From Planctomycetota bacterium (GTDB lineage: Bacteria; Planctomycetota; Phycisphaerae; UBA1845): a stretch of DNA of 40,453 nucleotides. The notes under the pieces were generated by a model that saw only the letters and a program-made list of their open reading frames with translations, searched no databases and was not told where the DNA came from. The first letter of the stretch is position 1. Every line of letters starts with the position of its first letter. A program made the position numbers and the translations under genes. The stretch is taken from NCBI GenBank assembly GCA_030616775.1, contig JAUWWQ010000039.1, positions 1 to 40,453 on the forward strand, written 5' to 3'. Below, one piece after another: positions 1-39,203 of this stretch.

Positions 1-997
<997 letters not shown>

Positions 998-38503: not shown

Positions 38504-39130
38504 TTACTGACTGAGCAATTTCCGTACGCGGCTGGCGAAGCCTTCCGGTGGTTCGAACCCATTGAGGCGGTCCGCGATGATCCCGTTTCGGTCGACGAAG
38601 ACTACGTCCGGGACAGCGCGTATGCCGTACCATTCGCCAAGCTTGGGATTCTTGTCCAGGTCGACGTACACCATCTGGACTTGGGCGAGCAGGTCGGCGA
38701 CGTTCGGATGTTGGAGGGTCTCGTTCTTCAGGCGTTGACACGCTCCGCACCATTCAGTCTGAAAGTCGAGCACCATGGGACGGTTGGCTGCTCGTGCTTG
38801 CTCGAACGCCTCCACCAGGAAGTCTGGAGCCTCGTCGGGAAGCGGCGCCTCAATCTGCCGACCGGCCGCTGTCGGAGTCTCGGCTACGGGAAGCCGGCTT
38901 ATGCTGAACTTGTCGCACACGCCGGCTATCACCTGGGCGAGTTTTTCCGGCGATGTCGCTGCATCGTCGTACAACACGGTTACCAGGTCGCTGGCGTAAT
39001 CCCAGACGATTTCACTTGTGGCTTTGGTCCCTTCCAGGGACTCGGTGACCGAGTTCGGTCACCCCAGTCACGTGGCGCCGGATTTGGATTTCATCATCCC
39101 GTCGACCCGGAATGTCACTCTCTCGGTCAT
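38504..39130 (-). CDS. Probable selenoprotein: HMA-like domain (UxxU) fused to thioredoxin
   Basis: 208 residues if two in-frame TGA codons (39070-39068 and 39061-39059; positions 21 and 24) are read as selenocysteine. ATG 39130 has a perfect GGAGG eight bases upstream. Residues 5-80 fit the heavy-metal-associated fold: VTFRVDGM, then the pair U21-L-G-U24 followed by PNSVTESLEG, then IVWDYASDLVTVLYDD and SPEKLAQVIAG. The pair falls where HMA proteins such as MerP have their CxxC metal-binding motif. Residues of about 95-205 are a thioredoxin domain with FQTEWCGAC (Cys128, Cys131) and AVPDVVFVD with the cis-proline, similar to the DsbD C-terminal domain. No signal peptide is seen, so it is probably cytoplasmic. 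Conventional annotation would begin at GTG 38977 and leave an HMA fragment. A role in metal (perhaps mercury or copper) or redox handling is inferred. Two nonsense mutations or sequence errors are the alternative. Confidence 0.75.
39027..39063 (-). promoter_or_regulatory. SECIS-like stem-loops next to the two TGA codons
   Basis: Two hairpins lie directly at and after the TGA pair. One is GGTGACCG-AACT-CGGTCACC (39063-39044), a perfect 8-bp stem that includes the second TGA. The other is GTCCC-TGGAA-GGGAC (39041-39027), whose G-containing apical loop lies 23-27 bases after the second TGA and 32-36 after the first. Bacterial SECIS elements are stem-loops inside the coding region with an apical-loop G at roughly this distance, bound by SelB. 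The second hairpin fits best. No folding energy was computed. Confidence 0.5.
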
Positions 39131-39203
39131 GTATGGAACCTCCATTACGTAGATACTTCGCGTAGGTTTGTCGCACAAACGGTCTGGACGGTCAAGGTCG
39201 TAG

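Follow-up and report, generated by a model that had tools for sequence, protein, structure and literature searches.

A Predicted Two-Selenocysteine Fusion of HMA and Thioredoxin-Like Domains in the Planctomycetota

Results

The window, which is the whole stretch of 40,453 nucleotides analysed here (contig JAUWWQ010000039.1 of the Planctomycetota bacterium assembly GCA_030616775.1), very probably encodes a protein with two selenocysteine (Sec) residues. The predicted protein consists of a heavy-metal-associated (HMA) domain with UxxU at its metal site, fused to a DsbD-gamma/thioredoxin-like domain. A hidden selenoprotein of this architecture had been proposed in a first-pass annotation. This reading is strongly supported because 27 homologues contain the same two TGA codons, a SECIS-like hairpin is conserved, and SelA, SelB and SelD are encoded in the genome.

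Reading Frame and Start Site

The coding sequence occupies positions 38504–39130 of the minus strand. It begins with ATG at 39130 and encodes 208 residues, including two UGA-encoded residues, before a TAA stop. The only internal stops are the two TGA codons. A GGAGG ribosome-binding site can be read directly at 39139–39143 (-), 8 nt upstream of the ATG. When TGA is translated as U, the first UGA (Sec21; 39068–39070, -) corresponds to the first cysteine of a CxxC motif and the second UGA (Sec24; 39059–39061, -) to the second. Both positions are placed by the translation, by an alignment of 28 members and by a profile alignment. The interrupted frame that the first-pass annotation had described, with its GGAGG and its ATG at 39130, is therefore confirmed by direct reading and translation.

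The internal stop codons separate the gene's start from the rest, so ordinary annotation would be expected to miss the 5' part and to list just a thioredoxin. A GTG-started ORF does exist at 38977–38504, and an annotation pipeline would list it. If translation began there, after the TGAs, only the thioredoxin part would be made. However, every member conserves both TGAs together with the HMA part, and it is the upstream ATG that has the ribosome-binding site, so a late start is very unlikely. From the upstream ATG, the N-terminus of the window copy is MTERV, with no visible leader. Most of the closest relatives have N-termini that resemble signal peptides or lipoboxes, as judged by eye.

Domain Architecture

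The HMA domain spans residues 4–77 (38900–39121, -) and contains the loop GM-MKSKSGA-TULGU. It is recognised by Pfam and hhalign and is present in an AlphaFold2 model (pLDDT 88). With cysteine read at the TGAs, the Pfam HMA model (PF00403) matches residues 16–69 with 28.6 bits against a cut-off of 24.8, and the same model matches all nine of the closest members. In an hhalign comparison with an ordinary HMA domain that the same genome encodes, residues 21 and 24 fall exactly on the CxxC. This is congruent with the earlier claim that the two TGAs have the spacing of the CxxC pair. Relative to the ordinary domain, the metal-binding loop is longer, with a 7-residue insert (MKSKSGA) between GM and TC. 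The cysteine form of the motif is replaced by UxxU in 28/28 members. CxxC is not retained by every HMA-fold protein, and because some of these proteins do without it, the HMA assignment stands, as a Sec variant.

The thioredoxin domain spans residues 105–207 (38510–38818, -) and has a WCGAC active site (Cys128 and Cys131). A thioredoxin domain with this motif had been reported to follow the HMA domain, and both Pfam Thioredoxin_2 (56.1 bits) and Pfam Thioredoxin (PF00085; 48.9 bits against 23.5) score above their cut-offs. The AlphaFold2 model, made from nine sequences, has a mean pLDDT of 88 and a pTM of 0.80. Its elements appear in the order strand-helix-strand-strand-helix-strand, followed by a thioredoxin fold. 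The closest solved structures are DsbD C-terminal domains, which match the thioredoxin half alone, and the best 50 Foldseek matches are all thioredoxin-type chains. Support for the predicted HMA fold comes from sequence profiles and from the secondary structure of the model rather than from a fold match.

Homologues and Conservation of the In-Frame TGA Codons

Eight other full-length homologues are present among the 60 closest-relative genomes. These are 45–54% identical, and each contains exactly two in-frame TGAs. In a phylum-wide profile search of 392 genomes, 19 homologues were found beyond the window's own genome, which also matched; they come from 18 genomes, as G079 has two copies. One of the 19 was initially matched by its thioredoxin half alone; its upstream part has both TGAs too. 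The searches used thresholds of 1e-3 and 1e-25 and covered one phylum. Across the full set, the other 27 full-length members are 25–53% identical to the window copy. No additional full-length member was found in a search of nine genomes from the class around G111. A contig scan of genomes with a single protein as the query recovered one relative, which is thioredoxin-only, and a plasmid search returned matches of the thioredoxin type only.

TGA occupies both HMA positions in all 28 aligned full-length members (the window copy and 27 others). An in-frame UGA at a functional cysteine position, which is one criterion for a bacterial selenoprotein, is found at both sites in every one of them. Chance is excluded because all 28 members keep both codons. 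At the thresholds used, no full-length member with cysteine at the TGA positions was found in the Planctomycetota genomes searched. Homologues with neither cysteine nor TGA at these positions, which the first-pass annotation had named as evidence against its own reading, were likewise absent from the 28.

Two in-frame stops in a draft genome could also indicate a decaying pseudogene or sequencing errors. The lack of an intact tRNA-Sec in the assembly and the missing leader of the window copy are consistent with this explanation. Against it, the 27 homologues are distributed across the phylum and share the two TGAs in a frame that is otherwise open, and the hairpin is conserved and covaries. 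Decay or error is extremely improbable, and for the family it is rejected on the evidence of the homologues.

RNA Structure Downstream of the TGA Codons

Among the nine closest members, third codon bases are constrained just past the first TGA. At conserved residues 22–36, three of seven third bases are invariant and the mean share is 0.86, while at conserved residues elsewhere 0/33 are invariant and the mean share is 0.66. Two hairpins are predicted in this region, and together they have 88.7% of cells paired in the 28 sequences. Their covariation score is 0.243, whereas shuffles average 0.124 and none of 500 scored as high; slid controls were far lower. The covariation lies almost wholly within the second hairpin.

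Hairpin 1 (GGUGACC...GGUCAC; 39045–39062, -) has 85% of cells paired in the 28 sequences and shows little covariation. Its core is invariant, its 5' arm contains the second UGA, and its loop is 11 nt past the first UGA. Hairpin 2 (GUCCC-UGGAA-GGGAC; 39026–39042, -) is the likely SECIS. It has 92% of cells paired, and four of its six pairs change on both sides. Most members have the loop UGGAA, and in 28/28 the second loop position is G. The loop starts 31 nt past the first UGA and 22 nt past the second.

In the published bSECIS model, the loop is 3–9 nt with a G in its first two positions, the stem is 4–16 bp, the spacing from the UGA is 16–37 nt and the minimum free energy is -7.5 kcal/mol or lower (PMC13188914). 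Hairpin 2 agrees with the stem, loop and spacing values for both UGAs in all 28 members. Its energy alone is -8.4 kcal/mol in the window copy and falls short of the -7.5 limit in some members (-6.4 to -7.1). Hairpin 1 was considered as a SECIS for the first UGA and rejected, as its loop is outside the bSECIS spacing and its stem includes the second UGA. For these same reasons hairpin 2 is preferred, and we infer that it serves both UGAs as a single SECIS.

Selenocysteine Machinery

SelA, SelB and two SelD genes are present in the genome, all above curated cut-offs. One of the SelD genes itself contains an in-frame TGA, in the motif CAGU, as expected for a Sec-containing SelD. Four approaches found no intact tRNA-Sec in the draft assembly (108 contigs, 97.8% complete): the Rfam model, ARAGORN, a DNA query taken from the tRNA-Sec of a sister genome, and a pattern for the anticodon arm. 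A guessed pattern for the tRNA end likewise gave no match. The assembly does contain a lone 3' fragment, the final 27 nt of a tRNA-Sec, at G000:C24:2203-2229 (L078 1501-1527). Four of the eight gene-carrying sister genomes tested have a tRNA-Sec above the cut-off, with anticodon TCA. The simplest reading is that the missing tRNA-Sec was lost in assembly. Of the machinery that the first-pass annotation had listed for checking, the protein genes were recovered, whereas this incomplete assembly lacks an intact tRNA-Sec.

The absence of an intact tRNA-Sec would also be compatible with UGAs that are read as a residue other than Sec, through an altered genetic code or by means of a suppressor tRNA. 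Set against this are the presence of SelA, SelB and Sec-type SelD, the tRNA-Sec genes with anticodon TCA in sister genomes, and the coincidence of the UGA positions with the metal-binding cysteine positions. A non-Sec reading is the least probable of all the explanations considered here, and decoding as Sec is preferred.

Several other features were recorded around tRNA-Sec sequences. Approximately 160 nt upstream of the 3' fragment is a 59-nt tRNA-Val-like sequence that lacks a D arm, and downstream of the fragment are two matches to Acido-Lenti-1 RNA, one of them just under the gathering score. The possibility that the fragment is the remnant of an integration site was considered, and none of the four nearby proteins checked showed an integrase. 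In a different genome, a 118-nt tRNA-Sec-like sequence (L077 1450-1567, G019:C151) has an odd, enlarged D-arm region and scores below the Rfam cut-off.

Additional Selenocysteine Positions

Some members have further TGAs in the thioredoxin domain. The thioredoxin motif is UxxC in 6/28 members; in the window copy it is WCGAC. Three of the six also have a TGA in the motif IPDTU and therefore contain four TGAs in all. The three others have UxxC only and contain three. In a FastTree phylogeny, the extra TGAs fall in two separate groups, and the deep branches of this tree are modestly supported.

Two fusion members contain an additional HMA domain with a TGA pair in the same frame, and each has four TGAs. 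At L099 the additional domain is N-terminal (GGITUPMUAGG), and at L091 it is C-terminal (GMTUPDGUGTPV).

Genomic Context

Selected neighbours were scanned individually. At two loci (L058 and L059), a MerR regulator, a CopZ/MerT/HMA fusion and the HMA–thioredoxin gene follow one another in this order on the same strand. MerR is upstream of the HMA–thioredoxin gene at L060, and at L108 MerR, a metal P-type ATPase and an RND pump are all nearby. Other loci have an RND pump (L110), ArsR and an SBF-family transporter (L102) or a CopZ/MerT protein (L113) near the gene, and at L085 a metal-sensing repressor is located just upstream of it. In several relatives, none of the scanned neighbours is a metal-resistance gene, and several have unrelated neighbours. 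The window copy is flanked by a gene for a TGS-domain GTPase and by one that belongs to no known family, with no metal genes, and its own context adds nothing on function.

Additional TGA-containing genes were observed beside some of the homologues. Directly upstream of one HMA–thioredoxin gene (L056, G003:C39, ~2690, -) is a gene for an outer-membrane-barrel-like protein with UPGU just past its signal peptide (AHAQUPGUANPSL); this protein has a weak match to Phenol_MetA_deg and no NCBIfam match. Upstream of another (L062, G054, ~7803, -) is a lipoprotein-like HMA protein with UxxU (IRGVTUPFUVNNIKRS), which scores 43 bits to NF041115. At L082 (G217) and L084 (G258), a neighbouring PDZ-domain protein has two adjacent TGAs (GAETUUASTRFES) and is possibly a tandem-Sec protein. 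Elsewhere in the window, positions 1–997 (-) contain the initial portion of a bacterial 16S rRNA gene that runs past the window edge.

Discussion

In the proposed mechanism, both UGAs would be read by SelB and tRNA-Sec, directed mainly by the SECIS hairpin at 39042–39026, whose loop is at an accepted distance from each of the two codons. The resulting selenolate pair would bind a soft metal, for which Hg(II) is the most likely candidate and Cu(I) or an arsenical are alternatives. Selenolates bind soft metals, Hg(II) among them, more tightly than thiolates do. The attached CxxC thioredoxin may keep the selenolate pair reduced or aid release of the metal. Judging by the leader sequences, the site of action would be the cell envelope in most relatives, and the window copy may be cytoplasmic.

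The first-pass annotation had suggested metal or oxidant handling coupled to a thioredoxin, and we infer a function of this kind. A soft-metal role, probably for mercury, is less certain than the identity of the protein as a selenoprotein. The metal-handling idea gains support because relatives have mercury, copper and arsenic resistance neighbours; this support does not come from the window.

UxxU could instead be a redox pair, with the HMA fold as an electron relay that links the thioredoxin domain to an external substrate, much as the DsbD domains do. This alternative competes with the metal role and leaves the selenoprotein identity untouched. The thioredoxin domain is structurally closest to the DsbD C-terminal domain and matches DsbD-type NCBIfam models, and Sec is also found in the thioredoxin motif of some branches, all of which is consistent with a redox role. 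However, the protein keeps both the HMA fold and the metal-ligand positions, and several relatives are located in mercury, copper or arsenic gene clusters. A redox role is somewhat unlikely on this evidence, and metal binding by the selenolate pair is the preferred function.

A broader proposal is made tentatively and with less than even confidence. The homologues may represent a phylum-wide family in which the HMA metal site always has two Sec residues, one SECIS serves two UGAs nine nucleotides apart, and a built-in thioredoxin keeps the selenolates reduced. Such a protein would be a self-reducing trap for mercury or another soft metal, and two side groups would also have Sec in the thioredoxin active site.

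Stand-alone UxxU metal-binding proteins are predicted selenoproteins of no known mechanism. The thioredoxin fusion suggests one, and it is testable. The basis for the suggestion is the selenolate pair beside a thioredoxin, the presence of Sec at both sites in every member found and the location of the gene, in some genomes, within mercury, copper or arsenic gene clusters. The HMA–thioredoxin gene is also a clean case for whether one SECIS decodes two close UGAs.

Comparison with Known Systems

A UxxU metal-binding protein with two Sec residues is listed in reviews as a "putative mercuric reductase" (NCBIfam NF041115; PMC13188914, PMC9312934). The window protein shares with this family, UxxU_metal_bind, an HMA-type domain, UxxU at the metal site and two Sec residues. 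Unlike NF041115, which is a stand-alone model of 74 positions, the window protein has a C-terminal thioredoxin domain, and its loop before the first Sec is 7 residues longer than that of an ordinary HMA domain. NF041115 gives it 20.1 bits against a cut-off of 95, and 27 of the 28 members match weakly. By these sequence comparisons, the window protein is a relative of NF041115 and not a member.

MerP and MerTP share the HMA fold with the window protein, and some relatives of the window gene have MerR and MerT neighbours. The window protein differs from them in having Sec in place of both cysteines and a fused thioredoxin domain. It scores 19.5 bits to MerP (TIGR02052; cut-off 92.55) and 21.8 bits to MerTP (cut-off 180), well under both cut-offs. 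With thioredoxin and the DsbD C-terminal domain it shares the thioredoxin fold and the CxxC active site, and these are its best structural matches. Unlike DsbD, it has no membrane domain, its thioredoxin domain is attached to an HMA domain, and the active site contains Sec in some branches.

Three described selenoprotein families are also similar in part. NF045683, the MerT/CopZ fusion-like heavy metal transport selenoprotein, has an HMA-like part but a different architecture, with a MerT membrane part, and is weakly matched by 6/28 members. NF041199 (Trx7/PDZ (seleno)protein) and NF045694 (TsoB) are thioredoxin-fusion selenoproteins, as the window protein is predicted to be, and the DsbD-like end of TsoB matches its thioredoxin domain. 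Both have other partner domains and other Sec motifs, however, and the window protein scores far below their cut-offs. No selenoprotein fusion of HMA and thioredoxin domains was found in NCBIfam or in the open-licence papers searched. UxxU HMA selenoproteins as such are already known.
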